The notes under the pieces are model-generated. The model was given only the letters and a program-made list of their open reading frames with translations. It had not been told where the DNA came from and ran no database searches. From positions 1,724,823 to 1,788,822 of the forward strand of contig NZ_CP085327.1 in the NCBI RefSeq assembly GCF_020614375.1: a stretch of 64,000 nt of DNA. The letters run 5' to 3'. Below, in pieces: positions 8,492 through 23,386 of the stretch. The stretch comes from Haladaptatus salinisoli. GTDB taxonomy: Archaea > Halobacteriota > Halobacteria > Halobacteriales > Haladaptataceae. The stretch's first letter is position 1, and every line of letters begins with the position of its first letter. The position numbers and the translations under genes are program-made.

Positions 8492-10423
8492 CTACTTACC
8501 GGTGGACTTGTGGATGTTGAGCCACGTTTGCGCGTTGGTGACGCCCCCGACGGACCGTATCCGACCGTCGAACTTGGTCGTCACCGGTTGCAGGACGCGA
8601 GAGTAGAAGTTTATCAGCGTCGGCGCGTCGCTGTAGATTCGCGCGAGCGCCTTCTTGACGATGGGCTTTCGCTCGTCGATCGTCATCATGCTCGCCTGCT
8701 TGAAGATGAGGTCGTCGGCGTTCGTGTACCCCATCGGGTTGAACTTCTGCGACTTCTTGTTCCCCTTCATGTCGGCACCCGCGCTGCTGTAGAACTGACG
8801 GTAGTGGTCGTTGACCCACGTGATGCCGGTCCATCCCATCTCGAACATGTCGAAATTCTCGTTCGCGTACACCTTCGGAAGCTGGGAGTTGAACGACTGG
8901 ACCTGCTTGGTCACCGGAATACCGACCGTCCGGAGCGCGTTTATCCACTGGTTCTCCAGTTGCGCCTTCTTCGGCGACTTCGACGGCGGGTTCATGCTCA
9001 TCTCGAGCGGCCCCTGCCCCGGATTCCCGTTGTTGTCGGTGTGCGCCTTCCCGAGGGGCTTTCCGTTGACGTATATCGCCTTGTTGTCCGGCGATTTGAC
9101 CTTGTCTGACTTCGCCGGGCCGATGGAGTAGTCGTGTTTCGCCCGGTCGTTGTTGAGGAGGAACTGCCGCGCCTTTTTGACGCCCGACGAGGAGAGTTTG
9201 AACTTCCCGCGCTTTCCGGGGAACGTCGTGTCGGGGATGGAGATTCCCTCGTACGAGCCGTTTTTGATCTTATCCGGCGTCGGCGGACGCCAGTCGTTGT
9301 ACGCGCTCGGCGTCGCGTAATCGCCGTGCTCGGCGGCGAGACCCCGGTACAGGTTTTCGACGACCCACTTCTTGTCGAACAGTTTGTTGAGGAGTTGGCG
9401 GAACGCGGGGTCGTCGAGGGGAACGCGGCGGACGTTGTAGGAGTTGTGTTCCCACCCGTCGTCTTTGGATTTGAGGACGGTGAGGTGGTTCTTGTTGGTG
9501 GCCTTCGAGGCTTTCTCGACTTTCACGGTGCCGTACGTCTGGTCGATCTTCCCGTCGAGCAGCGCCTGATTGAGCGCGGTCTGCGAGCCGAAAATCTCGA
9601 TGCGGAGGGCGTCGATGAACGGGCCCTTCTCGTGGAGCCAATCGGTGTGTTTCAGCCCGTTCCACGGAATCGCGGAGTCCTTCCGGGGGACGAGTTCGAA
9701 CCAGCTCTCCCACTTGTAGTTTTTCAGTTTGAACGGGCCGGAGCCGATCGGTCCGCCTTCCTTCCGCGGCGTGTACTTCGAGTAGTCGGAAACGTTCTTC
9801 CAGACGTGTTTCGGGAGGATGACGTTCCCGACGATGTTCGTCAACCACGCGCGGTCTTTCTCCTTCAGGTAGTAGAGAACCGTGTGCTTCCCCTCCGTTT
9901 TCACCTCCTTGACGGAGGAGAACTGCGACGCGGAAACCGTCCCGGCCGGTTTCTGCTCTTGGACGTAGTTGACGGTGAACTTCACGTCCTCCGCCGTGAC
10001 CGGTTTTCCGTCGCTGAAGGTGAGGCCCTCGCGGAGGTTCGCCTTCACCGTCCACTTGTCCGTCCCGGCGTTCTCCGGGCGCACCTTCCAGTCTTTCATC
10101 CCCCACGGGGCCGGCTTGTACGTCTCCGGGTGCTGAATCGTTCCCCACGTGTAGACGTTGTCGAGAATCGTCCACGCGTACGCCGTACTCGACGCGAGGG
10201 GGTTGAGGTTGTTCGGCGCCGTCGCCATCCCGAGGACCGGCTTTCCACCTTTCTGGATGTTCTTCGGCTTGTCCGTCTGTCCGTTACCGTCGCCGCCCCC
10301 GTTCCCGGATTTTTGGTCACCGGAGCAACCGGCCAGTCCGGCCGCGATACCGGTTCCGGTTCCAACGATGAACTTCCGTCGGTTGATTCGTTCGGATCGA
10401 TCGAGTTTCTCGTTCTCGCTCAT
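8492..10423 (-). CDS. Peptide-type ABC substrate-binding lipoprotein (SBP_bac_5), Tat-exported
   Basis: About 643 residues of extracellular solute receptor. The N-terminus carries a twin-arginine motif (NRRKFIVGTGTG) and a lipobox (LAGC), so it is exported folded and lipid-anchored. A Gly/Asn/Asp linker follows, then the SBP_bac_5 fold: SSTAYAWTILDNVYTWG, LREGLTFSDGKPVTAEDVKF, a proline-rich hinge, and a C-terminal FDMFEMGWTGITW. It is longer than most family members (about 500-550). Start is uncertain: the ATG at 10423 suits the signal peptide, but an in-frame GTG at 10447 lies 13 bases after an SD-like GGAGGT. It is the first gene of the ATPase-less transporter operon. Confidence 0.93.
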   Translation of the reverse strand: MSENEKLDRSERINRRKFIVGTGTGIAAGLAGCSGDQKSGNGGGDGNGQTDKPKNIQKGGKPVLGMATAPNNLNPLASSTAYAWTILDNVYTWGTIQHPETYKPAPWGMKDWKVRPENAGTDKWTVKANLREGLTFSDGKPVTAEDVKFTVNYVQEQKPAGTVSASQFSSVKEVKTEGKHTVLYYLKEKDRAWLTNIVGNVILPKHVWKNVSDYSKYTPRKEGGPIGSGPFKLKNYKWESWFELVPRKDSAIPWNGLKHTDWLHEKGPFIDALRIEIFGSQTALNQALLDGKIDQTYGTVKVEKASKATNKNHLTVLKSKDDGWEHNSYNVRRVPLDDPAFRQLLNKLFDKKWVVENLYRGLAAEHGDYATPSAYNDWRPPTPDKIKNGSYEGISIPDTTFPGKRGKFKLSSSGVKKARQFLLNNDRAKHDYSIGPAKSDKVKSPDNKAIYVNGKPLGKAHTDNNGNPGQGPLEMSMNPPSKSPKKAQLENQWINALRTVGIPVTKQVQSFNSQLPKVYANENFDMFEMGWTGITWVNDHYRQFYSSAGADMKGNKKSQKFNPMGYTNADDLIFKQASMMTIDERKPIVKKALARIYSDAPTLINFYSRVLQPVTTKFDGRIRSVGGVTNAQTWLNIHKSTGK

Positions 10424-10484
10424 AGTTACGTTCGAATCGGGTGTCACGCCAACCCGTGCTACCTCCTCTCAAACAAACAACCGA

Positions 10485-10497
10485 CTTTATTTATTAA
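10485..10497 (-). promoter_or_regulatory. TATA box and SD-like site of the peptide-ABC operon
   Basis: On the minus strand TTAATAAATAAAG is a strong TATA-like element in an unusually AT-rich patch (10470-10560). Initiation would fall near 10465, exactly where GGAGGT (complement of 10461-10466) sits. The mRNA would then have a short leader with a ribosome-binding site, which favours the GTG at 10447 or leaves a 42-base leader to the ATG at 10423. Confidence 0.5.
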
Positions 10498-10634
10498 TTC
10501 CCGTTTGGGATTGGGTTATTTATCCTAAAAAATATATAGGTAAAGTATATTATACTGTAATGTTTCGCTCAACGTCGCTGTATCATCGCGAAACGGCTCC
10601 CGTCGAAACCTGAGACCGACCGCGGCGGGAGTTC

Positions 10635-11321
10635 TCAGCCGAAATCATCGAGTCCGGTCTGTCGCTCGTTCTCGGGCGTCACCCGTTCGACCAGCGCAGA
10701 TGAGTCGTTCTTCGGGTCGTTCACCGCCTTCGACACGGGATAGGCTCGCATCTCGTCGGCGGGAAACGGGTCGAGAACCGATTCGAGTTCGGCCCCCTCG
10801 CCGTGAAGCCACGTCTCCTCTTCGCCGGGTGCGAGGACGACGGGCATCCGGTGGTGGACGTCGCGCACGAGGTCGTTCGGTTCGGTGGTGACGACCGTAA
10901 ACGACGTTTTCTTTCCGCCGCCGTTTCCGTTCCACGGTTCCCACAGCCCCGCCATCGCAAACGGTTCGCCGTCGCTCCTGGTCATTCGATAGGGTTGCTT
11001 CCCGGTCGCCGTCCGCTTCCAGTCGTAGAAGCCGTCCGCGAGGACGAGACACCGACGCTCGCGGTAGGCGTCGCGGAAACTCGGTTTTTCGGCCAGCGTC
11101 TCCGCCCGGGCGTTGGTGTGTCCGTCGCGGAACTCGTCGGCCCAGTGCGGGATGAGTCCCCACGTCGGAAAGCGCATCTCCTCGGGCGCGTCGTTTCGAA
11201 CGACCGGGTGTTCCTGGCCGGGTGCGACGTTGTATCGGGGACGGAGCGTTCGAGCGGGCACGGCGTCGAATCGCTCCGCGAGGTCCGCTTCGAGGGCGAA
11301 CAGCGAGAGGCGGCCACACAT
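10635..11321 (-). CDS. SRAP-domain protein (YedK/HMCES family)
   Basis: 228 residues from ATG 11321, chosen because Met-Cys-Gly-Arg begins the family: the initiator Met is removed and Cys2 is the nucleophile that crosslinks abasic sites in single-stranded DNA. Other family signatures are RYNVAPGQ (Asn/Pro pocket), TWGLIPHWA, NARAETLAEKPSFRDAY (catalytic Glu), LVLADGFYDWK, and VHHRMPVVL (active-site His). It protects replication forks from abasic lesions through a DNA-protein crosslink. It stands alone between two transport clusters. An upstream GTG at 11348 would bury the essential Cys and is rejected. Confidence 0.95.
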   Translation of the reverse strand: MCGRLSLFALEADLAERFDAVPARTLRPRYNVAPGQEHPVVRNDAPEEMRFPTWGLIPHWADEFRDGHTNARAETLAEKPSFRDAYRERRCLVLADGFYDWKRTATGKQPYRMTRSDGEPFAMAGLWEPWNGNGGGKKTSFTVVTTEPNDLVRDVHHRMPVVLAPGEEETWLHGEGAELESVLDPFPADEMRAYPVSKAVNDPKNDSSALVERVTPENERQTGLDDFG

Positions 11322-11458
11322 GGGTCGAGAGAGGACGCGAGCGGGCAAAAAATTACCCGAGAACGCGACCGAGGAGCGCCTTACTGACTTAAAGGATTTT
11401 AAATCCGGTTAACTATCCAGCCGTCAGATATGCATGGTCTCGTCCCCTCATTACGACC

Positions 11459-12796
11459 ATGGGCGAGCAGCTCGGATTGAAGGAAGCGATAGCGATGGCT
11501 CTCGGAGGGATGATCGGCGGCGGCATCTACTCCGCGTTCGGTATCGTCGTCGCCATCTCCGGAAAGATCGCGTGGCTGGCGTTCACCGTCGCTGGGTTCG
11601 TGGCGATGTGTGCCGGCTACAGCTACGTCCAGTTGAACAAGCTGACCGAGAACAAGGGGGGTGCGCCGACCTACATAGCCGAGATCGTCGACCGGTCAAC
11701 CGCGGCGGGGATGACGGGGTGGACGCTCCTGTTCGGCTACATCGGGTCGATGGCTCTGTACGCCTACGCCTTCTCCTCGTTCTTCTCGGAACTGGTCGGG
11801 CGACTCCACTACGCGTTGGTGGTTCCGGTGGTGAGCTACGAACTGGTCGTTCCCGTTCCCAACGTCGTCTCCATACTGCTCATCGGCGCGTTCGTCGGGC
11901 TGAACCTCCTCGGAGCCACAGAGACGGGGAAGGTGGAGGACGTGCTCTCGTTCTTCAAGGTCGGCATCATCGCCGTCTTCGGCGCGTGGGGCGTCTGGTT
12001 CGCCTACACCGGCCAGACGCTGAATCTCGGATTCTCCGAACTCGGCTTCAGTCCCATCATCGGCGCGTCGATGTCGTTCGTCGCGTTCCAGGGCTGGCAG
12101 TTGCTGATGTACGACCAGTCGCAGTTCGAGGAACCGGTCGAGAACATCCGGAAGGCCATCTACATCTCGATTCCGATAGCGACCCTCCTCTACGTCCTCG
12201 TCGCGTTCACGACCGTCAGCATCCTCGAACTGTCGGTCATCGCGGTGTCGCCCGAGGTGTCGCTGTTGTACGCCGCGCTCCCGTACATGGGGGCGATAGG
12301 CGCGTTCGTCATCGGTATCTCGGCGCTGTTCTCGACCGCGAGCGCGGTGAACGCCACGCTGTTCAGCGGGGCGCAGTTCTCCCGAAACCTCATCAACCGG
12401 GGACTCCTCCCTGAGCGGTTCAGCACCAGCGAAGAAGGCGTCCCCTCGAAGCTCGTCGTCGTGCTCGGCGTCCTCTCGGCGGCGTTCGCGGTGTACGGAA
12501 GCCTTCGCAGCATCACCTCCTTCGCGTCGCTCGCGTTCATCGCCGTCTTCGGCGCGATGAGCTATCTCGCGTTCCGCAAGCGCGACGAGATCGACGACAT
12601 GATAGTCGCCCTGCCGGTCGTCGGCATGGTGGGCTGTACGGTCTTCTTTCCCCTCCTGCTCTACGACCTCTACCTGAACAGTCCGAGCACGTTCTTCATC
12701 GTGCTCGTCATCGCCGTGCTCGTCATCGGCGTGGAGCTGATATACTTCGAACGACAGCCGATCAAAGCGGCGGTTCCCGGCATCAACACGGACTAA
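11459..12796 (+). CDS. APC-superfamily amino-acid permease
   Basis: 445-residue integral membrane transporter with about 12 hydrophobic segments. The first helix has the APC signature GLKEAIAMALGGMIGGGIYS (unwound GGG substrate site). Helix 6 reads SMSFVAFQGWQLLMYDQSQF, another conserved region of this superfamily. It probably exchanges or imports an amino acid with protons or sodium. No UspA domain is fused, unlike many haloarchaeal relatives. It ends two bases before a binding-protein gene, so they are co-transcribed, which is an odd partnership because APC permeases need no binding protein. An AT-rich element (ATTTTAAATCC) lies about 60 bases upstream. Confidence 0.92.
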   Translation: MGEQLGLKEAIAMALGGMIGGGIYSAFGIVVAISGKIAWLAFTVAGFVAMCAGYSYVQLNKLTENKGGAPTYIAEIVDRSTAAGMTGWTLLFGYIGSMALYAYAFSSFFSELVGRLHYALVVPVVSYELVVPVPNVVSILLIGAFVGLNLLGATETGKVEDVLSFFKVGIIAVFGAWGVWFAYTGQTLNLGFSELGFSPIIGASMSFVAFQGWQLLMYDQSQFEEPVENIRKAIYISIPIATLLYVLVAFTTVSILELSVIAVSPEVSLLYAALPYMGAIGAFVIGISALFSTASAVNATLFSGAQFSRNLINRGLLPERFSTSEEGVPSKLVVVLGVLSAAFAVYGSLRSITSFASLAFIAVFGAMSYLAFRKRDEIDDMIVALPVVGMVGCTVFFPLLLYDLYLNSPSTFFIVLVIAVLVIGVELIYFERQPIKAAVPGINTD

Positions 12797-12798
12797 GC

Positions 12799-14415
12799 AT
12801 GAACGAGAACGCACGCGAACTCGATCGTCGCACCGCACTGAAAGGAATCGGCGCGGTCGCCGGGTCGGCGGCGCTCGCGGGTTGCGCGGGGGTCGTCGGG
12901 GGGTCCGGCGACGGCGAACAGCTACGCTACGCGCAGGTGCTCACGCCCGTCTCGCTCGACCCCATCGCGGTCGACGACCCGTGGTCCGGGCAGGTACAGT
13001 CGCTCATCTTCGAGGGGCTGTACACCTACGACTACGGGATGAACCTCGTCCCGGTGCTGGCGAACGGAAAGCCGAATCAGCGCGACGGCGGGAAGCGATA
13101 CGCCGTCGAACTGCGGGACGAGGCGCGCTTCCAGAACGGAAAACCGGTCACCGCGGAGGACGTGAAGTACAGCTTCGAGAAGCCGAATCAGGAGGAGACG
13201 CCGCCGCCGACGAAGTGGCACGTCGACGCGATAGAGACGGTGAAGACGCCCTCGAAGCGGACGGTGGAGTTCGTGCTAGAACACCCCTATCCGGGGGTCG
13301 AGCACGCGCTGACGCGACCCGTCGTGCCGAAGTCGGTTCGGGAGAAGAACCCGAAGGCGTTCGGGACGAAGACGACGATCGGGTCGGGACCGTACCGACT
13401 CGACCGATTCAAGCCCGGGAAGTACGCCACGCTGACGTCGTGGGACGACCACTGGCGCTCGCGGGGCGGGACCATTCCGCGGGCGAAGTTCGTCCCGAAC
13501 CACGCCGGACTGGCGCGAACGATGAGTTTGAAGACGGGACAGAACGACATCGTCGAGCGAATCCAGCCGAAGCTGTGGGGGCCGACGCAGCACTTCCCCG
13601 ACTCGACGGTCGTCTCGAGCGAGAGCTACCACTACCACTTCGTCGGCTTCAACTGTAGCAGCGGCACGCCGACCGCGAAACCGAAGGTGCGAGAGGGAAT
13701 CGACGCCCTCGTCTCGATGGACGAACTGGTCAAACACGTGGTCGAACCGTCGGGGCGGCGGCAGTACGGTCCGCTGCCCCGGCAAGTCGCCGAGGCGTGG
13801 AACGTGCCCGTCGAGGAGTGGAAGAAGATTCCCAAGAAGAAGAGCCACCACGAGGCGAAGAAGCTGATAAAGGAGGAGGCGGGGGTGAAATCGTGGAGTC
13901 CGAAGATAGCGGTGCCGGGTACCAAGAGTTCGGGCGACAAGATGCGCGAGAAGATAGCCGAGACCATCGTCCACGGGCTGAAGAAGCTGGGATTTCGCAA
14001 AGCCCGAACGCAGAAGTACCCGTGGCCGAAGTTCCGCGAACTCGTCACCAACGGCGACCAGGGGAACTACGCGATGTTCGTGGGGTCGTGGGCCGGCTAC
14101 CCCGACCCGGATACGTTCCTCTATCCGCTGTTCCACAGCAACAACGAGGGACTGACGAACGGCACGTACTACCGCGACGAGAGCCTGATGGAGGACATCG
14201 AGGCCGCCCGGCGGACGACGAATCGCGAAAAGCGCGAACGGCTGTACGAAAAAAGCATCCGAACCGTCCTCGAACAGCGCGTTCACCTCCCGGCGTACAC
14301 CCTGCACAACAGCTTCGGCGTGAAGAATCGCATCTCCGGTTTCCGCCCGCACCCCGTCTCGCAGTTCAATCCGCGGCTCGTGGGGCCGGACGGGTCGGTG
14401 TCGCTCCGCGAGTAG
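12799..14415 (+). CDS. Orphan peptide-type substrate-binding lipoprotein (SBP_bac_5)
   Basis: 538 residues. A twin-arginine motif (DRRTALKGIG) and lipobox (LAGC) indicate Tat export and lipid anchoring. Domain features include VLTPVSLDPIAVDDPWSGQV, FQNGKPVTAEDVKYSFEKPN, TIGSGPYRLDRFKPGKY and WAGYPDPDTFLYPLFHS, all typical of DppA/OppA-like receptors. It begins two bases after the APC permease stop but has no ABC permease or ATPase next to it. It may feed the ABC permeases encoded at 6438-8413 in this window or another system, or deliver ligand to the APC permease; neither can be shown here. Confidence 0.92.
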   Translation: MNENARELDRRTALKGIGAVAGSAALAGCAGVVGGSGDGEQLRYAQVLTPVSLDPIAVDDPWSGQVQSLIFEGLYTYDYGMNLVPVLANGKPNQRDGGKRYAVELRDEARFQNGKPVTAEDVKYSFEKPNQEETPPPTKWHVDAIETVKTPSKRTVEFVLEHPYPGVEHALTRPVVPKSVREKNPKAFGTKTTIGSGPYRLDRFKPGKYATLTSWDDHWRSRGGTIPRAKFVPNHAGLARTMSLKTGQNDIVERIQPKLWGPTQHFPDSTVVSSESYHYHFVGFNCSSGTPTAKPKVREGIDALVSMDELVKHVVEPSGRRQYGPLPRQVAEAWNVPVEEWKKIPKKKSHHEAKKLIKEEAGVKSWSPKIAVPGTKSSGDKMREKIAETIVHGLKKLGFRKARTQKYPWPKFRELVTNGDQGNYAMFVGSWAGYPDPDTFLYPLFHSNNEGLTNGTYYRDESLMEDIEAARRTTNREKRERLYEKSIRTVLEQRVHLPAYTLHNSFGVKNRISGFRPHPVSQFNPRLVGPDGSVSLRE

Positions 14416-14445
14416 CGGCGTCCGTCGCGTCGTGACGAACGCCGG

Positions 14446-15612
14446 TTACGACGGTTGCTCGCTGGGCGCGAACTCCTCCTCCGAGCGCCCGCTGCTCTTG
14501 ATGATGTCGAACGCGGTCATCAGGTCGGTTCGGGAGATGATACCCGCCACGTCCCCGTTCGCGTCGATGACGGGAAGGCGACCGATGCCGTGCTGCTGGA
14601 TGGATTCGAGCGCGTCGATGGCGTCGCTCTCGGCGGAGATGGTCTTCACGTCGGTCGACATCACCTCCTCGACGGTGTAGGCGTCGCGTTCGACCTGCCG
14701 GACGCTCCGCGCGTCGTCCAGCGTTATCATCCCGACGAGTTCGCCGTCGCTGACCACGGGGTAGCCGGTGTGACGCTGTTGGAACATCATCTCCAGCAGG
14801 TCGGCGATGGAGGTGTCCGGCGAGACGGTCTGCAGGTCCCGCGCGGGCGTCATCACGTCGCGGACGCGGACGTTCCGGAACGCCGCCGAGAGGACGGTCT
14901 GTTGGGCCTCGCTGGACGCGCCGATGTAGATGAAGAAGGCGATACCGATGAGGATGATGTTGCCGCCGAGCAGGCCGAACAGGCCGAGCAGGATGGCGAA
15001 CAGTTTGCCGACCTCTGCGGCGGTCTGGGTCGCCTGCGCGAACGGTCGAGTGCGGGCGAGCAACGCGCGCAGGACGCGCCCCCCGTCCATCGGGAAGCCG
15101 GGCAGGAGGTTGAACGCGGCGAGCACGAGGTTCATCAGCGCGAGGTAGCCGACGACGAATCTGATAGCCTCCTGTTCGGCGGGGATGAAACCAAGCGCGA
15201 GGAAGGAGCCGACGCCGAGGACGACGCTGACGAACGGGCCGGCGATGGCGATGAGCAGTTCTTCGAGCCAGTTCTCCGGTTGGTCGGTGAGCCGAGCGAC
15301 GCCGCCGAAAATCCACAGGGTGATTGAGTCGATGGGGAACCCGAACCGCATGGCGACGACCGAGTGGCCGAGTTCGTGGAGCACGACGCCGACGAAGAGA
15401 CCGACCGCGGCCACCGCACCGAGGAGCCACGGCATCGACCCCGACGAGAGCGGTTCGGCGGTCAGACCGAGGTTCCAAAGCTGATTCATTATTTCGACCC
15501 ACTGGCCGACCTGCGTCCCGATGAGCCACGCGAACACCGGGAGGATGAGGAGGAATGTGAGGTCGAGTTTGATCGGGATGCCGAACGCGCTCCCGATTCT
15601 GAAGCTTCGCAT
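14446..15612 (-). CDS. Site-2-type membrane metalloprotease (M50) with two CBS domains
   Basis: 388 residues from ATG 15612, where the conserved start MRSFRIGSAFGIPIKL lies; the longer open frame upstream is Arg/Ser-rich and rejected. Membrane segments surround the zinc motif HELGHS (about residues 68-73) and the distal Asp site (LLPGFPMDGGRVLRALLA). Two CBS domains fill the C-terminal 130 residues (VRDVMTPARDLQTVSPDTSI; VEEVMSTDVKTISAESDA) and probably bind adenine nucleotides to control proteolysis. The family cleaves membrane-embedded regulators. It is divergent from the TnpB-like gene with 136 bases between the starts. Confidence 0.93.
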   Translation of the reverse strand: MRSFRIGSAFGIPIKLDLTFLLILPVFAWLIGTQVGQWVEIMNQLWNLGLTAEPLSSGSMPWLLGAVAAVGLFVGVVLHELGHSVVAMRFGFPIDSITLWIFGGVARLTDQPENWLEELLIAIAGPFVSVVLGVGSFLALGFIPAEQEAIRFVVGYLALMNLVLAAFNLLPGFPMDGGRVLRALLARTRPFAQATQTAAEVGKLFAILLGLFGLLGGNIILIGIAFFIYIGASSEAQQTVLSAAFRNVRVRDVMTPARDLQTVSPDTSIADLLEMMFQQRHTGYPVVSDGELVGMITLDDARSVRQVERDAYTVEEVMSTDVKTISAESDAIDALESIQQHGIGRLPVIDANGDVAGIISRTDLMTAFDIIKSSGRSEEEFAPSEQPS

Positions 15613-15748
15613 GGGTGTATCTAGCGGCGGAAACGCCTTAAACTTCCTCGCGGTCGCGCCGTCCCGAGATGTCACCGAACGCGACCGTCGGTCGCCCGTC
15701 CCGCGGCGACCCGAAGTATTCAAGGGGGCGCTCCGGGGAGAAAAGAGC

Positions 15749-16960
15749 GTGAGTGGTTCCGACTACCTCAAGCGGACGGCGGTAACCCGGCTCGCGGTCG
15801 CGGAGGACGACCGCGAGCGCCTGTTGGCGATGGTGCGCGAGTGGAAGCGGGGGTGTCAGATAGCGGTCAACGCCGCGTGGGGCGTCTGTCACACCCGCAA
15901 CGAGGTGCAGCAACTCGCCTACGACGAACTGCGCGAGCGCACCGACCTCGGGAGCCAACACGCCGTCCTCGCCACCCATCGCGCCGCCGAAGCGATAAAG
16001 CGCACCCTCGACCGCGACGGCGACGAGGCGGCGAAACCGGAGTTCACCAGCCCGAGCGTCGTCTACGACACGCGGACGATGACGCTGTTCGACGACCGAA
16101 GCGTCAGCCTGACGACGACCGGGGAGCGCGTCCACTGCGACCTCGATTTTCCGACCGACGGCTACCAGTCGCGGTATCTAAACGAGGAGTGGGAACCGGC
16201 GAAGAGCGTCCTCCGGTACCGCGACGGCGAGTTCCACCTGCACCTCGGTTTTCGTACGCCCCACCCCGAAATCGAACCGCCGGGCGACGACGCCACCGTC
16301 CTCGGCGTCGCGCTCGGCGTCGAGAATCTGGCCGTGACGAGCACGGCGCGGTTCTTCTCGGGGGGCGAACTGGCGCACCGCCGCCGCGAGTTCGAGGGAT
16401 TACGCGCCGACCTGCGCGAGGCGGGGACGCGGAACGCGCGCCGAACGCTCCGTCGAGCGGGCGACCGCGCCGACAACTTCGCCCGCGACGCGCTCCACGA
16501 GGTCGCGGGCGGCATCATCGAGGAAGCGGAACGACACGGCTGTTCCGTCGTCGCGTTCGGCGAACTCGAAGCCGTCCTCGAGATGCTCTCGGAGGCCGAG
16601 GGGTTCCACTCGTGGGCGTTCGAGCGCCTGTTCGAGTTCGTGGCGTATCGAGCGGCGGAACGGGGAATCACGGTCGTACAGGTGAACCCCGAGTACACGA
16701 GTCAACGCTGTACCGCCTGCGGGTTCACCCACCCGCAGAACCGCGACGTGGAGGACAACCACTTCGAGTGCCTGAAGTGCGGCAACGAGGCCAACGACGA
16801 CTACAACGCGGCGAAGAACGTCGGGTTCCGGTGTATCCGACGCGGTCCGCTCTCCTCGCGGGGCGTCGGCGCGAGGTACTGCGCGCTCAAATCCGGGCGG
16901 GTGACACCGGACGGGGAGTTCGTGCCGAACGCGGAACTCGAAGAAGTGCAAAAAACTTAG
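15749..16960 (+). CDS. TnpB-family protein with degraded RuvC active site (nuclease-dead TnpB homologue)
   Basis: 403 residues from GTG 15749 (the start fits family N-termini; the longer frame overlaps the divergent gene). The full TnpB length is present: wedge/REC region (KRGCQIAVNAAWGVC, SRYLNEEW), RuvC and zinc ribbon (Cys 321, 324, 341, 344). Two of three catalytic acids are gone. RuvC-I reads TVLGVALGVENLAVTST, where active relatives have GVDLGV (residue 188 Ala, codon GCG). RuvC-II reads VAFGELE, where relatives have AFEDLT (residue 271 Gly). RuvC-III keeps Asp351 (NDDYNAAKN). No tnpA partner and no insertion-sequence ends are seen. TnpB is an RNA-guided nuclease; this one should bind but not cut. 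A cupin gene starts 24 bases downstream. Confidence 0.9.
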   Translation: MSGSDYLKRTAVTRLAVAEDDRERLLAMVREWKRGCQIAVNAAWGVCHTRNEVQQLAYDELRERTDLGSQHAVLATHRAAEAIKRTLDRDGDEAAKPEFTSPSVVYDTRTMTLFDDRSVSLTTTGERVHCDLDFPTDGYQSRYLNEEWEPAKSVLRYRDGEFHLHLGFRTPHPEIEPPGDDATVLGVALGVENLAVTSTARFFSGGELAHRRREFEGLRADLREAGTRNARRTLRRAGDRADNFARDALHEVAGGIIEEAERHGCSVVAFGELEAVLEMLSEAEGFHSWAFERLFEFVAYRAAERGITVVQVNPEYTSQRCTACGFTHPQNRDVEDNHFECLKCGNEANDDYNAAKNVGFRCIRRGPLSSRGVGARYCALKSGRVTPDGEFVPNAELEEVQKT

Positions 16961-16984
16961 CCCTCCCCGCTCGAAGCGCCGGGT

Positions 16985-17353
16985 ATGACTGACCCAGACC
17001 CGGTCGTTCGGAAGGCGGACGACGTCGAGTACGAAGCGGTCGGAGCAGCCGAGGGGATGGAGAAGGGCGTCCTCATCGGCGACGAGCAGGGCGCGCCGAA
17101 CTTCGCCATCCGCCGGTTCACGCTCGAACCGGGCGCGGAAGTTCCGGAGCACACCAACGAAGTGGAACACGAACAGTACGTGCTGGAGGGCGAGTACGTG
17201 GTCGGAATCGACGGCGAGGAGTACGAGGTCGAGGCGGGCGATTCGCTGCTCGTTCCCGCCGGCGTCGTCCACTGGTATCGAAACGAGGGCGACGCTCCGG
17301 GTGCGTTTCTCTGCGCCGTGCCGAACGGGGACGACGAGATACGGCTCGTTTAG
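16985..17353 (+). CDS. Cupin-domain protein
   Basis: 122 residues forming a single beta-barrel cupin (about residues 35-110). Motif 1 appears as PGAEVPEHTNEVEHEQYVLEG, giving the metal-binding His, His and Glu-type ligands, with Gly at its end. Motif 2 appears as AGDSLLVPAGVVHWYRN with the last metal His. Small cupins of this kind act as isomerases, dioxygenases or simple ligand-binding proteins; no substrate is inferable. It starts 24 bases after the TnpB-like gene on the same strand and may share its transcript. Its stop overlaps the stop of the convergent small gene. Confidence 0.9.
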   Translation: MTDPDPVVRKADDVEYEAVGAAEGMEKGVLIGDEQGAPNFAIRRFTLEPGAEVPEHTNEVEHEQYVLEGEYVVGIDGEEYEVEAGDSLLVPAGVVHWYRNEGDAPGAFLCAVPNGDDEIRLV

Positions 17354-17526
17354 CGGTGTTCGGAGAGCGAGACGACGGTTTCGATGGACGATTCGACCCA
17401 CGCTTCGTCGTCGCTCGCGTCGCGCATTCGAACCAGCGGTCGTTCGCGGTCCGCTCCGTCTTCGATTTCGAGGACGATTCGGTCGTCGAACCGTTCCGGG
17501 AGTTCTTCTTCGTGCGTGCCTTCCAT
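17350..17526 (-). CDS. Small acidic hypothetical protein
   Basis: 58 residues from ATG 17526 (a GTG three codons upstream is possible). Sequence features: MEGTHEEELPERFDDRIVLE, a predicted beta-hairpin around LVRMRDASDDEAWVESS, and a short ending SLSEHR. Composition and codon use match real haloarchaeal genes, and I believe short proteins like this are widespread in the class, but I cannot name a family. Its stop overlaps the cupin stop (convergent). Function unknown. Confidence 0.65.
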   Translation of the reverse strand: MEGTHEEELPERFDDRIVLEIEDGADRERPLVRMRDASDDEAWVESSIETVVSLSEHR

Positions 17527-17780
17527 GAGTGCCACCTGTCGAACGCTACCGCGCGCTGTCTGCGCTTTCCGAGCGAGCCCGCTTTGTTATGAGCCGATTT
17601 CGGGACGGTAGCGGCGGAATACCGTTTTCTCGCTTTCGTTATCGACGGATTACCGCGATTCAACGGCGGATTTCGGGCCCCGTCGGCGGTGCCTACCGCG
17701 GCCCGGCGGCGGGGCGGAGAAGGCGCCCGACCCTCGTCCGGTTCGAATCCCTGAAATAGCTCCGACGTGTAGCACGCACC

Positions 17781-19835
17781 GTGTCGAAGCAGGCCCAGCA
17801 GGTGGAGACGCTCTTCTGCCACGAGACCGACCGGGGCTACTTGGTCGTCGCGCGGCGGAACGGCCAGCGACAGTTCCGCGCCGTCCTCGAACTGAAGGAG
17901 ACGAGCGCCGGACCGCGACCGGGGCGATATCTCCTGAAGGAAGGGTCGAGCGAGAAACCGCGCAGCCCCGACGAGTTCGTGGAACTGGCGCGAGGAGCGA
18001 ACCGCATCCGCATCTCGCAGCAGACCTCGCCCGAAGCGCGGGAGGAACTGAAGGAGATGCTCGCGGGGTACCAGCTCGACGCGAAGGCGGTTCGAACCTG
18101 CCGGTACTGCGCCAACAGCGGGCGCTACTCGCCCATCAACGGCGAGACGGCCGTCGACGCTGGCGAGGAGTACATCTGCCCCGACTGCGCGACCAAGGAA
18201 TTAGAACGCGAACTCTCGTTCAGAGGCGACCTGACCGGGGCCGCGCAGGACCGACTCGAAGACCTCCTGCTGGAAGTGCAGGATTTGGAGCGAATCACGA
18301 ACCTGCTCAAGGGGCGACTCGACCCCGACCTGACGAAGTTCGACGAGATAAGCGCGAACGTCGAGGACGTGGAGACGGTGCCGGTCGATTCGCTCGACCT
18401 GCACCCCGGCATCCAGAACCTGCTGGAACCACGATTCGACGAACTGCTCCCCGTCCAGAGCCTCGCGGTGCAGAACGGGCTGCTCGACGGCGACGACCAG
18501 CTCGTCGTGAGCGCGACGGCGACCGGGAAGACCCTCGTCGGCGAGATGACGGGCATCGACCGCGTGCTGAACGGACGGGGAAAACTGCTCTTTCTCGTCC
18601 CGCTCGTCGCGCTGGCGAACCAGAAACACGAGGACTTCGAAGAGGAGTACAGCGACCTCGTGAACGTCACCATTCGAGTGGGCGCGAGCAGGGTGCGCGA
18701 CGACGGCAACCGGTTCGACCCGAACGCGGACGTCATCGTCGGCACCTACGAGGGCATCGACCACGCGCTCAGAACCGGGCGCGACCTGGGCGACATCGGC
18801 ACCGTCGTCATCGACGAGGTGCACACCCTCCAGGAACAGGAACGCGGCCACCGCCTCGACGGGCTCATCTCGCGGCTGAAGTACTACTGCGAGGAGCGCG
18901 CGAAACGACGCACGGAGTACGGCGGAGCGCAGTGGGTGTACCTCTCCGCGACGGTCGGCAACCCCCGCGATCTGGCGGGGGCGCTCGAGGCGAACCTCGT
19001 GGAGTTCGAGGAGCGCCCGGTCGCGCTGGAACGCCACGTCACCTTCGCCGACGGGCGCGAGAAGCCGAACATCGAGAACAAACTGGTCAAGCGCGAGTTC
19101 GACCGCGAATCCTCGAAGGGGTATCACGGACAGACCATCATCTTCACCAACTCGCGGCGGCGCTGTCACGAGATTTCGAGGAAGCTGGAGTACAACTCCG
19201 CGCCCTACCACGCCGGACTGGACTACGGGCGGCGCAAGCAGGTCGAGCGCATGTTCGCCGAACAGGAACTCGCGGCGGTCGTCACGACCGCCGCGCTCGC
19301 CGCGGGCGTCGATTTCCCCGCCTCGCAGGTCGTCTTCGACTCGCTGGCGATGGGCATCGAGTGGCTCTCGGTGCAGGAGTTCCACCAGATGCTCGGCCGC
19401 GCCGGGCGGCCCGACTACCACGACCGGGGGAAGGTGTACGTCCTCGTGGAACCCGACGGGAGCTACCACAACAGCATGGAGATGTCGGAGGACGAGGTGG
19501 CGTTCAAACTCCTGAAAGGCGAGATGGAGGACGTTCGCACGCGCTACGACGAGAGCGCCGCCGTCGAGGAGACGCTGGCGAACATCACGGTCGGCGGGAA
19601 GGCCGCCAAGCGCCTGAACGACCGGATGATCGGCGATGTGCCGACGAAGCACGCGCTCGGTAAACTGCTCGAATACGAGTTCATCGACGGCTTCTCGCCG
19701 ACCCGCCTCGGCCGCGTCATCACCACCCACTTCCTCGCGCCGGACGAGGCGTTCAAGATGGTGGACGGGATCCGGAAGGAGAAACACCCGTACCACATCG
19801 TCGCCGACCTCGAACTCCACGGCGAGGACGAGTAG
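17781..19835 (+). CDS. DEAD/DEAH-box superfamily 2 helicase, DUF5814 type
   Basis: 684 residues from a GTG start. The N-terminal 170 residues are the haloarchaeal DUF5814 region with a four-Cys zinc site (CRYCANSGRY..., ICPDC). The helicase core follows: Walker A VSATATGKTL, motif II DEVH, motif III LSATVGN, motif V region VVTTAALAAGVDFPASQVVF, and motif VI FHQMLGRAGRPDY. The core resembles the Hel308/Ski2 group in motif VI and may unwind RNA or DNA using ATP. The short C-terminus has a winged-helix-like ratchet (LGKLLEYEFIDGFSPTRLGR). It stands alone on the plus strand. The substrate is unknown. Confidence 0.9.
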   Translation: MSKQAQQVETLFCHETDRGYLVVARRNGQRQFRAVLELKETSAGPRPGRYLLKEGSSEKPRSPDEFVELARGANRIRISQQTSPEAREELKEMLAGYQLDAKAVRTCRYCANSGRYSPINGETAVDAGEEYICPDCATKELERELSFRGDLTGAAQDRLEDLLLEVQDLERITNLLKGRLDPDLTKFDEISANVEDVETVPVDSLDLHPGIQNLLEPRFDELLPVQSLAVQNGLLDGDDQLVVSATATGKTLVGEMTGIDRVLNGRGKLLFLVPLVALANQKHEDFEEEYSDLVNVTIRVGASRVRDDGNRFDPNADVIVGTYEGIDHALRTGRDLGDIGTVVIDEVHTLQEQERGHRLDGLISRLKYYCEERAKRRTEYGGAQWVYLSATVGNPRDLAGALEANLVEFEERPVALERHVTFADGREKPNIENKLVKREFDRESSKGYHGQTIIFTNSRRRCHEISRKLEYNSAPYHAGLDYGRRKQVERMFAEQELAAVVTTAALAAGVDFPASQVVFDSLAMGIEWLSVQEFHQMLGRAGRPDYHDRGKVYVLVEPDGSYHNSMEMSEDEVAFKLLKGEMEDVRTRYDESAAVEETLANITVGGKAAKRLNDRMIGDVPTKHALGKLLEYEFIDGFSPTRLGRVITTHFLAPDEAFKMVDGIRKEKHPYHIVADLELHGEDE

Positions 19836-19953
19836 GTCACCTGCACGCCCGAAGTCGGCGCTAGTGGAAGTCCGTTGGTCGGCGAACGGTGGACTGCCGC
19901 GGAGGAGAATTCCACCAACAGCGTTAATTAGTGATGTATCCGAGTGACCGACG

Positions 19954-20727
19954 ATGGACTCCAGAGAACAGGTTGACTTTCTCGCTAGCTCGCCAACCCG
20001 TCTCTGTCTCCTCCGAAAACTACGTGACCAACCGTTAGACCCGAGTACGCTCACGACTCGCTGTACGTGTTCACGAGCGACCGTCCATCGGAACTTAGAG
20101 ACAGTACAGCAGTACGGGTGGGTGAAGTCGGTCAATGGTAGCTACGAACTCACCGTAGTGGGTAAACGAATCCTCGACCAGTTCGGCTCGCTCCTCGAAA
20201 CGATTTCCACCGTGAACGCTCACGAGATGTTCTTCCAGCACCTCGGCGATCTCGGTCTCGATATTCCGCTCGCCGGGTTCGACTCCGGTACGGTCGTGAC
20301 CGCGACGCCGGAGAACCCGCACGCACCGCTACAGTATTGCACGACCGAGATCACCGAGCTTTCGAGCGAGCGATACTACGGCGTCTCACCGATAGTGAGC
20401 CCCGAGTTCAACGAATCGACCCAGTCGTTCATCGAAACGGGAACCGAGATAGAACTCATCATCGACGAAACCGTCTGGAGCGTGGCTCAAGCGGCGTACC
20501 CGAACGACATCGCCGAAGCGTTCGAGACCGATCACTTTTCCCTCTACGTGTATCCGGACGACCTCTCGTTCGGCTTCGCCCTCTTCGACGATCGGGTCTT
20601 CGTCGGTGCCCACACCGACAGCGGGCAACTGCAAGCGTGTCTCGATAGCACCGACGAAGAACTGTTCGACTGGGTGGAGGACCAGTACAACCAGTTCCGT
20701 GCGGAGGCGGATCGGGTCGAGCGCTAA
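19954..20727 (+). CDS. Winged-helix transcriptional regulator with FilR1-type sensor domain
   Basis: 257 residues. The N-terminal wHTH (residues about 5-75: VDFLASSPTRLCLLRKLRDQ, CSRATVHRNLETVQQYGWV, ELTVVGKRIL) matches the ArsR/TrmB-like archaeal group. A C-terminal alpha/beta domain follows (VTATPENPHAPLQYCTTEIT, GTEIELIIDETVWSVA, DDLSFGFALFDDRVFVGAH) as in the DUF1724/FilR1 methanogenesis-regulator family, found in many copies in haloarchaea. The ligand is unknown. The nearest possible target is the small leftward gene candidate at 20747-20875, just past its 3' end, with a palindrome at 20937. Confidence 0.88.
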   Translation: MDSREQVDFLASSPTRLCLLRKLRDQPLDPSTLTTRCTCSRATVHRNLETVQQYGWVKSVNGSYELTVVGKRILDQFGSLLETISTVNAHEMFFQHLGDLGLDIPLAGFDSGTVVTATPENPHAPLQYCTTEITELSSERYYGVSPIVSPEFNESTQSFIETGTEIELIIDETVWSVAQAAYPNDIAEAFETDHFSLYVYPDDLSFGFALFDDRVFVGAHTDSGQLQACLDSTDEELFDWVEDQYNQFRAEADRVER

Positions 20728-20746
20728 TCTAACAGAGCGTGAACGT

Positions 20747-20875
20747 CTAGAAACCGCCGGAGGGCCGAAGTAACCATTCACTCACGTAGATGAGCGGTGT
20801 CGAAGGAATGGTGCGGGGCTGGTGATGACGCCAGAACTCCGACATCAGCCACCGTAAGTAGCTGGGACCTTCCAT
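20747..20875 (-). CDS. Candidate 42-residue Trp-rich microprotein
   Basis: From ATG 20875 the frame encodes 42 residues starting MEGPSYLRWLMSEFWRHHQP and ending LLRPSGGF. Three Trp, with Tyr, Phe and Pro, give a composition very unlike the Arg/Ser-rich shadows typical of this genome. On the minus strand TTATAA (around 20904-20909) lies about 30 bases before the ATG, the spacing expected for a leaderless haloarchaeal transcript. No ribosome-binding site is needed in that case. I do not recognise a family. It could still be chance. Confidence 0.35.
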   Translation of the reverse strand: MEGPSYLRWLMSEFWRHHQPRTIPSTPLIYVSEWLLRPSGGF

Positions 20876-20936
20876 CGACAAAATATATTCTCCCAGGTAC
20901 TCCCTTATAATTACCCCGTGATCGATAGTACACGGT

Positions 20937-20952
20937 GTGAACGTTCGTTCAC
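20937..20952. promoter_or_regulatory. Near-palindrome GTGAACG-TT-CGTTCAC
   Basis: A perfect 7-bp inverted repeat with a 2-base centre. It lies about 30 bases upstream of the TATA-like element facing the candidate microprotein gene, a position where archaeal activators bind. The FilR1-type regulator encoded next door is a possible binder, but that is inference. Confidence 0.3.
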
Positions 20953-21154
20953 CCCGTGAAACACGCCGCCGAACGTCGTGCGACGAGTGGAGAAAACGCT
21001 TCGCCAACGTCGCCGCCGACCGGTGCGGGCCTACCGCCGGAAATCGCAAATCGCGTCGAAGCGAGTCCGACGTGGGACGAGACCGACGCGAGGTCGGTGC
21101 CAGCTTCAAATTAAACGAAACGCTTTACAAGGTAAACACGCTATTGCGTTGTAC

Positions 21155-21227
21155 GGGATCGTGGGGTAGCTTGGTATCCTTTCGGCCTTGGGTGCCGATA
21201 ACCCCGGTTCAAATCCGGGCGATCCCA
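21155..21227 (+). tRNA. tRNA-Pro (anticodon TGG)
   Basis: Complete cloverleaf. Acceptor GGGATCG pairs with CGATCCC, discriminator A at 21227, CCA not encoded. The anticodon stem-loop is TCGGC-CTTGGGT-GCCGA with anticodon TGG. The T arm is CCCGG-TTCAAAT-CCGGG. No intron. An AT-richer patch of DNA begins beyond it. Confidence 0.95.
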
Positions 21228-21780
21228 TCCGGTTTTGCACGGTTCGTAGCCAACGCGTTTGGTCACCCGAGCGGCTGTATCGAACGGTGATACGGCCGCC
21301 CTCGACGTGAGGTTCGTCGTACAGTTCCCGGACGATCCGAACGAATCTCCGGATCATTGCACCGGTAGCAAGATGTTCCACCGTGTAGCGGTGTTACCCG
21401 GTGCTATCTGGCTCGGTCCTAACCGCTAGATACTCTTTTCGACGTTCTCTCGGTTCGCGTTTGTACAGAAACGTGCAACTCGGTCTGGGGTATATTCGCC
21501 AGTACGCAGCGGGTGCGTGGGCCGGTGTGATGTCGTGGTCGCGGCGGAATTCATCCGTATTTTGTCAGCACTTCGACTAGATCCTCTGAGCGAGCTAGGC
21601 AACTGGTGCAACTCCTGCTGGTAATCCTGAAAGGATGACGTCCCTCCATTCATCTAGCAGGCGTTTCTATCCGGTTTCAGGAAATGATCTATCAAAAGAT
21701 CTGGTCGGGTATGTGAAGATATATGATCCATTTCCATTCCAAAAGATATAATGAGGGAACGTTTCTAAATCCGATGGAAC
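21228..21780. other. Long gene-free interval after tRNA-Pro
   Basis: 553 bases with no supported gene. Base composition falls steadily toward the right, reaching AT-rich DNA near 21690-21770. Short frames on the minus strand exist, but one reads through the tRNA (giving the usual GFEPG artefact) and the others lack any recognisable pattern. I looked for a repeat of the tRNA 3' end that would mark an integrated element and found none in the next 1.4 kb. Confidence 0.5.
21743..21752 (+). promoter_or_regulatory. TATA box of the Tat-exported protein gene
   Basis: AAGATATAAT is centred about 33 bases before the ATG at 21781, which predicts a leaderless or nearly leaderless mRNA. Confidence 0.5.
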
Positions 21781-22416
21781 ATGAGCGAGAAAAAGCGTGG
21801 ACGGCGACGCTTCCTCCGATCGGCTGCGACCCTTGGAATCGGGGTTGCCGGTGGAATCGCCGCGACTGGGACAGCAGCAGCTAACTCGGATGAAATACGG
21901 GTGTATTCCAACAGCAATTACTGGGAATATCAGGTGCACACTACCACAGGCTACGACGACCTAAAAAGGGGTTCAGAGGCTGAGCAACACGACACATTCC
22001 CAGGCTCTGGAGATGACTTTGTAGCTGGGGAGGTTAGTGACGGAGGAGTAGACAACTTCTGGATGGATTCTGGCGATTCGATCACTCAGATTAATGTCAC
22101 CTATAACGATTATGGATGGATAAAGATCAGCGAAGAAACAGCAAATATGAAAACGGCAGTTAAAGTGGATAGAGACGAGAACCCGGACTGGCCCGGGTAT
22201 AATTACACCATTGACATCAGCGGGCAGGTGCAACCTCATGATGAGTATTTCGATTACGGTCAAGACGAGATTCGGAATGGTGACGCTGGTCCATTCGTAG
22301 GTACTATTGACCCCGGCGATGTGGACGCAGTCTGGAAAACGGGAGTTCCTACGCGCGTATTTATTGAAGATCCAAACTCTCCCGGCCTTGGGCTGACCAT
22401 CACTCTCCCGAGTTGA
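21781..22416 (+). CDS. Tat-exported hypothetical protein in an AT-richer patch
   Basis: 211 residues. The signal peptide is clear: GRRRFLRSAATLGIGVAGGI with a twin-arginine motif, followed by a TAAAN-type cleavage region near residue 35, so it is secreted. The mature part is beta-rich with many Asp, Gly, Tyr, Trp and Asn (VYSNSNYWEYQVHT; ITQINVTYNDYGWIKIS). A repeated theme of extended strands ends in GLGLTITLPS. No family is recognised. Codon use and G+C are clearly lower than in neighbouring genes, suggesting recent acquisition. It stands alone about 550 bases after tRNA-Pro. Could be a surface or toxin-like protein; no evidence decides. Confidence 0.8.
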   Translation: MSEKKRGRRRFLRSAATLGIGVAGGIAATGTAAANSDEIRVYSNSNYWEYQVHTTTGYDDLKRGSEAEQHDTFPGSGDDFVAGEVSDGGVDNFWMDSGDSITQINVTYNDYGWIKISEETANMKTAVKVDRDENPDWPGYNYTIDISGQVQPHDEYFDYGQDEIRNGDAGPFVGTIDPGDVDAVWKTGVPTRVFIEDPNSPGLGLTITLPS

Positions 22417-22550
22417 TCGTGTTTTTATAATTTCCGCATAGGGCGTGTACGAACGCGCAAAGAAGGCTCTTTAGCGGACCGCAGAAGCCGGGGTAGCGGT
22501 CCTAGTACCGATTTAGCACTCCTCGTCGAGGCCCCTAATCAGTATGCTCG

Positions 22551-22781
22551 CTACTCCGCTTGCCGGCTCGGATCGTCGGATTCAACGCTCTCGTCGTGCC
22601 CGTCGGCCTGCTCCGACGCCGCGTCTTCGCGGCGTCCCTGCGTCGCCTTCGATTTGAGCTTTCGTTTGACGAGGTAGTAGCCGCCGACGGACCCGGCGCC
22701 GAACACCACGGCACCGGGCTTGCCGAACCGCCGGTAGCCGAACTTCGCCGCCTTCTTGCCGACCGTCAGTGGTCCCAGCAT
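22551..22781 (-). CDS. Small hypothetical protein with one hydrophobic segment
   Basis: 76 residues. The N-terminal half (MLGPLTVGKKAAKFGYRRFG, then a Gly/Val-rich stretch to YYLVKRKLKSKA) looks like a single membrane-associated helix after a basic start. The C-terminal 30 residues are polar and acidic and probably disordered. I recall similar short proteins in other haloarchaea, but no name. It is divergent from the wHTH gene. Confidence 0.6.
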   Translation of the reverse strand: MLGPLTVGKKAAKFGYRRFGKPGAVVFGAGSVGGYYLVKRKLKSKATQGRREDAASEQADGHDESVESDDPSRQAE

Positions 22782-22882
22782 ACCTTACGATGGGGCCTCC
22801 GACGCCGAAGGTAACGGGGTTGTGCACGCAAGTCGTTTATCCGCTGACCACCCTAGCGGTGCGGACATATCTTCCGTTCGAT

Positions 22883-22892
22883 TTAATATTTG
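22883..22892 (+). promoter_or_regulatory. TATA box of the small wHTH gene
   Basis: TTAATATTTG, within AT-rich surroundings, is centred about 28 bases before ATG 22916 and fits a leaderless start. It supports 22916 over an upstream in-frame ATG at 22769. Confidence 0.5.
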
Positions 22893-22915
22893 TTACTGCA
22901 TATACGAGGGCGAGC

Positions 22916-23338
22916 ATGAGACTCGTTGGACGCCGATCGGTGGCCGGCAGTAAACTCATCGAGCGGTTACGCCGCGCGATTTCGCGGGTGAACGCCGGAA
23001 TCGTCGGCGCGAAATCGGCACCGGCGGGACACGGAGAACGCGACGCGAGCGAGTCCGCTGGCGGTCGGTCGATGGCCGACTTCGCGCTGGAGACGGGCGT
23101 CACGCCGGAGGAGTACGTCGTGAGCCTGCTCGAAGAGCGCGGTGGCAACCAGCGCCAGCAGGCGATACTCGCCGAGACGGGGTTGAATCGGTCGAGCGTC
23201 AGTCGGCTCCTCCGCGAGATGGAAGCGAACGGGCGGATACGTCGCGTCAGACTCGGCGCGGAGAACCACGTGTACCTGCCGGACGCCGCGCCCGACCTCG
23301 CCGGCCCGGAAGACCCCGCATCGACGGCAGATATCTGA
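22916..23338 (+). CDS. Small winged-helix (MarR/TrmB-like) regulator upstream of mcm
   Basis: 140 residues from ATG 22916; the longer open frame is discarded because the TATA box lies inside it. The last 80 residues are a wHTH: TPEEYVVSLLEERGGNQRQQ, then recognition helix NRSSVSRLLREMEANGRIRR and wing LGAENHVYLPD. The N-terminal 50 residues are basic and not globular, and could touch DNA or membrane. It precedes mcm by 48 bases on the same strand, so it may be co-transcribed with or act on the replication helicase gene. No ligand-binding domain is present. Confidence 0.8.
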   Translation: MRLVGRRSVAGSKLIERLRRAISRVNAGIVGAKSAPAGHGERDASESAGGRSMADFALETGVTPEEYVVSLLEERGGNQRQQAILAETGLNRSSVSRLLREMEANGRIRRVRLGAENHVYLPDAAPDLAGPEDPASTADI

Positions 23339-23386
23339 CACGACTTTGCGAAACTTCTTACGTAATCGAGCACCAATGGATACTGA

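Follow-up and report, generated by a model that had tools for sequence, protein, structure and literature searches.

What remains of a TnpB protein once its nuclease has been lost, and does it still depend on the RNA that once guided it? The question is raised by a gene at positions 15749..16960 (plus strand) of a 64,000-nucleotide stretch of the Haladaptatus salinisoli genome (NCBI RefSeq assembly GCF_020614375.1, contig NZ_CP085327.1, positions 1,724,823 to 1,788,822 of the forward strand; hereafter the window). Dead, domesticated TnpBs are already known from bacteria; to our knowledge, the known TnpB exaptations (Cas12, and the TnpB-like nuclease-dead repressors, TldR) retain the RNA guide and alter its use. 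A sequence-only reading of the window had proposed the gene as a candidate RNA-guided DNA-binding regulator. Comparison with its relatives leaves us in almost no doubt that it is a domesticated TnpB, fixed as a host gene across one haloarchaeal family, the Haladaptataceae. The locus-by-locus comparisons indicate that its guide RNA in cis has very probably been lost. We are evenly divided over the full statement that this TnpB-derived host gene, having no guide of its own, acts as a guide-independent DNA-binding regulator of the chromosome through its REC/wedge (WED) half.

The 403-residue open reading frame begins with GTG and has its sole stop at the end. Both PF07282 and NF040570 score above cut-off for the protein, which places it in the TnpB/Cas12f family, and the earlier description of a complete TnpB homologue with two RuvC residues lost was confirmed. 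The RuvC-I codon 188 (16310..16312, plus strand) is GCG, with Ala for Asp in the motif GVALGV, and the RuvC-II codon 271 (16559..16561, plus strand) is GGC, with Gly for Glu in AFGEL. The RuvC-III codons 350-351 (16796..16801, plus strand) encode Asp-Asp, of which the catalytic Asp351 (GAC, 16799-16801) is kept, and the zinc cysteines Cys321, Cys324, Cys341 and Cys344 are all in place. The window gene reads A/G/D instead of the D/E/D triad of active IS200/IS605 TnpB. In an alignment to Protein Data Bank (PDB) chains, D188, E271 and D351 fall on the RuvC D/E/D motifs of AsCas12f, whose chain 7wju has GIALGV at the first RuvC motif. The triad is intact in all 23 active relatives counted, out of 34 non-orthologous loci. 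Position 271 is Glu in 30/30 active rows versus Gly in the 27 orthologues of the window gene, in an alignment with no row from copies L004 and L041 and partial rows from L042 and L043; in the L043 row, Glu replaces Asp at position 351.

One orthologue per genome was found in 27 of the 28 family genomes, and the genome without it is 62% complete. An order-wide search of 392 genomes returned the same 27 alone at E<=1e-142 and none of the 364 sampled genomes of other families; the threshold is slightly stricter than the E-value of the family's best active copy (3.9e-138), and a strongly diverged orthologue elsewhere could escape it. The named genera carrying the orthologue are Haladaptatus and Halomicrococcus. 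The third genus is most likely Halorussus by elimination, as the third of the three family genera named by NCBI, if both taxonomies agree. No other TnpB copy in the genome of H. salinisoli is more than 48% identical to the window gene.

The chromosomal place is equally constant. Upstream and divergent lies a gene for an M50 protease with CBS domains (14446..15612, minus strand), found at 26/27 loci and absent beside the Halomicrococcus copy; downstream lies a Cupin_2 gene (16985..17353, plus strand), present in the short flanks of 24/27 loci. A DEAD-box helicase gene (17781..19835, plus strand) is third in the order M50, cupin, helicase, an order also seen, minus the TnpB gene, in other families. 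The 20-kb stretches cover 20 of the 26 further genomes that carry the gene; M50 was found in 19, the cupin in 19 and the helicase in 18 of them. In other families, M50 and cupin were adjacent in 13 of 25 loci taken from the best 30 places of a search, and TnpB was present in 0/25. The M50-cupin order without TnpB is therefore the empty site, and the simplest explanation is that an IS200/IS605-type TnpB landed between the two genes in the ancestor of the Haladaptataceae. A single clade at the same site in 27 genomes is far beyond chance, and one orthologue per genome amid constant neighbours is not the scattered placement of a mobile gene. The absence of tnpA and of element ends noted earlier also stood: no transposase was found by Pfam among six scanned neighbour proteins (one of them without any Pfam match), and the right-end motif described below is missing around the stop. 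All 2211 matching plasmid records were <60% identical to the window gene, leaving no plasmid copy at >=60%.

The gene could in principle be a dying transposon gene that has stayed open by chance so far, and the loss of catalytic residues and of the element's right end would fit such a view. The reading frame is open in 27/27 genomes, and dN/dS has a median of 0.17 over 351 pairs (one saturated) with a maximum of 0.41; within genera the medians are 0.14 in Haladaptatus and 0.15 in the third genus. Amino-acid divergence follows that of the M50 protease (r 0.78; means 0.238 for TnpB and 0.228 for M50, 325 pairs from 26 loci), being 0.131 versus 0.195 in the third genus and 0.199 versus 0.148 in Haladaptatus. 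Purifying selection at a protease-like pace, in one conserved place, indicates that the gene is not decaying, and we regard the dying-gene explanation as scarcely credible. Neutral dN/dS, frameshifts or a locus that is not conserved had been named as signs of decay; the results favour a kept gene on each point. The L074 orthologue encodes a protein of 419 residues, 16 above most, and is in frame throughout.

We examined whether the locus still encodes a guide. In most active relatives a hairpin and AGGGTGGGGTAGTTGAC or a variant of it lie just after or overlapping the stop, followed by variable sequence. Rfam gave no omega-RNA family at gathering score in ten active or 15 orthologous loci; since it was silent at active loci too, it is uninformative here, and a covariance model of our own, R1, was built from 19 of the 23 active copies. 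Of 20 TnpB copies held out from the model, R1 detected the omega-RNA in 14, with at least 29.9 bits; it missed L003, which is intact, and L006-L010, which are distant or broken. At the 27 orthologous loci, R1 scores never exceeded 15.1 bits (18 of the 27 were rerun with filters off). The right-end motif GTTGAY occurs within 120 nucleotides after the stop in 20/23 active copies; it was found at 0/27 orthologous loci between -120 and +200 of the stop (simple shuffles give 9% per locus), and the 24-nucleotide gap between the TnpB stop and the cupin start (16961..16984, plus strand) contains no omega-RNA right-end motif.

The coding sequence tells the same story. Codon families were controlled in this test, since codon bias accounts for part of the dip that the raw values show at codons 341-360. 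At codons 361-395, synonymous change in the 23 active copies was 0.62 of expectation (8/369 windows as low), as expected where an RNA overlaps the gene. The value for the window clade was 1.05 (263/369), with 0.91 in Haladaptatus (78/369) and 1.28 in the third genus (361/369). The C-terminal tail (residues 361-403; 16829..16957, plus strand), which overlaps the omega-RNA in active relatives, is conserved here as protein with free synonymous sites, so that the tail now appears to be kept as protein; in both genera, codons 361-380 show less amino-acid change than any other complete 20-codon window, though narrowly. The tail of ISDra2 TnpB is described as disordered and dispensable for cleavage (PMC10097598). 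In the third genus, codons 341-360 (window 16769-16828) show synonymous change at 0.57 of expectation after codon control (9/384 windows as low). Identity over the 50 nucleotides after the stop in that genus equals the shuffled value (0.19 and 0.19, 136 pairs), and the 3' flanks of its pair L067/L070 are unlike despite an ORF dS of only 0.12. The guide RNA that had been expected at the 3' end is not detectable at any of the 27 loci.

On a midpoint-rooted tree, from which L042 and L043 were left out, the 27 orthologues form a single clade with support 100/100, whose stem is long, at 0.55 changes per column. The RNA-bearing copy L002 lies outside it, with its partner L003 giving no match, and 26 active copies lie beside it, grouped with weak support (82/55). 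With RNA-bearing copies both outside and beside the clade, loss of the omega-RNA on its stem is the simplest reading, not proof. The overlapping omega-RNA and the right end of the element would most simply have been lost on the same ancestral branch as the RuvC-II Glu. A RuvC-II point mutant of AmaTnpB is reported to lose omega-RNA processing (PMC10278001).

The window protein shares with bacterial TldRs the descent from TnpB, the loss of RuvC residues (two of three here), an intact protein under selection and a place outside a transposon. As with a TldR, its mode of action may be to bind DNA and leave it uncut. A true archaeal TldR would repress under a guide supplied in trans or by an RNA diverged beyond recognition, and the kept fold and recognition residues described below, together with the description of TldRs as an outcome of RuvC loss (PMC13418256), would be in line with this. 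At least one R1-type omega-RNA (E<=0.01) lies elsewhere in 16 of the 27 genomes; the gene is also kept in the other 11, where none was found anywhere in the genome. At the locus itself, neither an omega-RNA match nor the right-end motif is present, synonymous sites are unconstrained and the 3' sequence is not conserved, and nuclease loss in TldRs is described without apparent loss of the guide RNA (PMC13418256). We did not file the gene as a TldR because the kept guide RNA was looked for and not found, and consider this explanation unlikely. Other differences are that the gene is archaeal and family-wide and has no conserved peptide-transporter partner.

That partnership had been suggested by two peptide-binding protein genes (here SBP1 and SBP2) near the gene, and it was rejected on the 20-kb stretches. 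SBP2 is whole in 2/20 and a remnant in 1/20 genomes within about 9-10 kb, and SBP1 with its permeases is found in 0/20, barring one permease match at 35-40%; short flanks had earlier shown SBP2 also at the edge of L056. One TldR clade is described with flagellin as partner gene (PMC13418256). Among possible TldR-type partners, the peptide transporter is not conserved in the 20 genomes and flagellin was not searched for; the constant neighbours are M50 and cupin.

The protein itself suggests which half is still in use. Of 149 positions invariant among 26 active copies, 103 are kept. Net charge of REC/WED is nearly unchanged (-6.3 versus -7.7), whereas RuvC is far more acidic (-7.0 and -9.1 versus -0.5), and positive charge has been lost from RuvC, the zinc ribbon and the tail; copies L002, L003, L042 and L043 were left out of the charge analysis. 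In ISDra2 TnpB, the omega-RNA is described as held by WED and RuvC, and the transposon-associated motif as read by REC and WED (PMC10097598). By analogy, the DNA-reading half would be kept and the RNA face eroded. An AlphaFold model of the whole TnpB fold from 34 sequences (pLDDT 84.3, pTM 0.60) contains the WED, REC, RuvC and zinc elements; a first model was set aside as too poor (pLDDT 65.4, pTM 0.44). The PDB matches of the model are AsCas12f, OsCas12f, ISFba1 TnpB and ISDra2 TnpB (E 1e-20 to 1e-8), with TM-scores of 0.34-0.57, modest values that we ascribe to a different orientation of the lobes.

A protein that keeps its recognition half could also serve host protection against related TnpB elements: without cutting, it might sit on the motif that they target or sequester their omega-RNA. 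The family does encounter elements of this kind, and close R1-type elements (>=100 bits) occur in 2/28 family genomes versus 19/81 others. The two proportions do not differ significantly (Fisher p = 0.09) and come from counts with unlike filters; with matched filters they were 1/8 versus 19/81 (p = 0.68), and 4/8 versus 56/81 for any R1 match (p = 0.43). The RuvC domain, which helps to hold omega-RNA in ISDra2 according to PMC10097598, has turned acidic here. We judge a protective role improbable.

The promoter provides a second conserved element. A promoter/leader block at -50..-1 (15699..15748, plus strand) carries AAGTATTCAAG at 15714-15724 and is present in 27/27 orthologues. A longer in-frame ORF opens at ATG 15521; as the conserved block stops at GTG 15749, the latter is the likely start. 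Identity of the -50..-1 region within genera is 0.86-0.87 for TnpB (0.87 in the third genus), compared to 0.62-0.74 for M50, 0.53-0.71 for the cupin and 0.76-0.77 for the helicase. The stronger conservation than at the neighbours indicates that, as far as these alignments can tell, the selected unit is promoter plus protein. The protein would bind DNA guide-free through the kept REC/wedge half, with its own 50-bp promoter as a possible target. The DNA-binding part of the earlier proposal thus persists as the best guess from sequence, while its RNA-guided part is unsupported, no own guide having been found. We are somewhat less confident of the wider formulation, that the TnpB of the whole family shed nuclease and guide RNA and is now a protein-only, sequence-reading DNA-binding regulator. 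The date of the RNA loss, DNA binding, regulation and the target are what we infer in this account.

Several observations weigh against such a guide-free regulator. The best R1 match at the orthologous loci (L060, 15.1 bits, E 0.015) lies at the place homologous to the omega-RNA, as do further weak matches in L054 (14.9 bits) and L063 (14.1 bits) and weaker ones in L064, L067, L069 and L051; unrelated places in these loci score as high (L074, 14.9 bits). R1 is not all-seeing, and an unrelated, strongly diverged or trans-supplied RNA may exist. In Haladaptatus the 50 nucleotides after the stop are 0.66 identical; they comprise the 24-nucleotide gap and the beginning of the cupin coding sequence. 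RuvC may have turned acidic as an adaptation to a salt-in cell, although REC/WED shows no such shift. No regulon sharing the promoter motif was found in the own genome, where three relaxed matches, one being this place, compare to one in the control. A class-wide search by promoter motif was also rejected as a route to a regulon: 4/391 genomes matched, 3 of them at this place, and the leading C of the pattern is missing from most orthologues. Finally, D188 and D351 are kept in 18/18 orthologues outside Haladaptatus, and a structural role alone would not obviously require them.

This last point bears on the order of loss. The earlier reading had asked for orthologues with the same two substitutions at the same locus; the place and Gly271 hold in all 27, while Asp188 is replaced in 9/9 Haladaptatus, by Ala (5) or Ser (4), and is still Asp in the remaining 18. 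Residue 351 is His in four orthologues (L055-L058), which together form one clade. The simplest reading of these residues is that Glu271 was lost first, in the whole family, then Asp188 in Haladaptatus, and Asp351 last in four species. Asp350 is present in 27/27 orthologues, compared to Ala in 93% of active rows; it may have a structural role or belong to a rearranged site.

The Halorussus and Halomicrococcus proteins could still be nucleases with a rearranged RuvC site, Glu271 being lost and Asp350 gained next to Asp351, and Haladaptatus alone would be dead. Retention of D188 and D351, with a D350 unusual among active relatives, would be in line with such a site, and TnpB clades with rearranged RuvC-II (RII-r) are described, one tested member of which is active (PMC10278001). 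Like these clades, the window clade has the RuvC-II Glu off its usual place. The surveyed RII-r clades were picked, as described in PMC10278001, because they are associated with transposons and the 3' end of their omega-RNA is well conserved; in the window clade the RNA was not found and RuvC-I is also lost in one genus. No omega-RNA was found that could guide such a nuclease, and D350 persists in Haladaptatus despite the missing D188. We hold a surviving nuclease to be decidedly improbable, and return to the regulator as the preferred reading.

Active haloarchaeal IS200/IS605-type TnpBs belong to the same subfamily by sequence (about 49-54% identical) and share domains and zinc ribbon; they differ from the window gene in their D/E/D triad, overlapping omega-RNA, GTTGAY right end with variable sequence behind it, and occurrence on plasmids. 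Cas12m (type V-M) likewise has a non-canonical RuvC triad and is described as binding without cutting (PMC10442227), which the window protein may do too. Cas12m is guided by a CRISPR RNA, and no CRISPR-like direct repeats were found in window positions 9000-24000.

Among the open-access papers searched, no earlier description of a dead, family-wide archaeal TnpB without guide RNA was found, nor any article dealing with this clade; an entry in the 2023 TnpB census or the 2024 TldR tables is possible. If the guide was indeed dropped, the clade would show the TnpB fold acting alone and, should the protein be a protein-only regulator, a route from RNA-guided nuclease to ordinary transcription factor. 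The orthologues at one place, which lack one, two or all three of the catalytic residues, are living intermediates that make the order of domestication testable in culturable archaea. The NCBIfam model would give the name 'RNA-guided endonuclease TnpB', which misleads in the case of Haladaptatus and is questionable elsewhere in the family.

Some minor observations were made on the surroundings of the gene and on its active relatives. The stop-to-cupin gap is 24 nucleotides in 9/10 Haladaptatus/Halomicrococcus loci and 31 to 1351 nucleotides in loci of the third genus with the cupin in the short flank; judging from these lengths, the TnpB and cupin genes may be co-transcribed in the Haladaptatus/Halomicrococcus group only. 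An SRAP (YedK-like) gene lies at window positions 10635-11348 (minus strand), and a homologue passing the search cut-off lies no more than about 10 kb away in 16/20 family genomes, often adjoining M50. The active copies L028, L035 and L036, from three genera, have an identical sequence after GTTGAT, ATTCCGGCCTAGGC, and so share their guide or target. Four copies, L028, L033, L036 and L039, sit just 3' of a tRNA gene, which suggests tRNA-adjacent target sites. Besides the window gene, the genome of H. salinisoli has nine TnpB matches; eight of them, several interrupted by stops, lie on contig C7, as do the genome's three R1-type omega-RNAs. C7 looks like a replicon gathering insertion elements.
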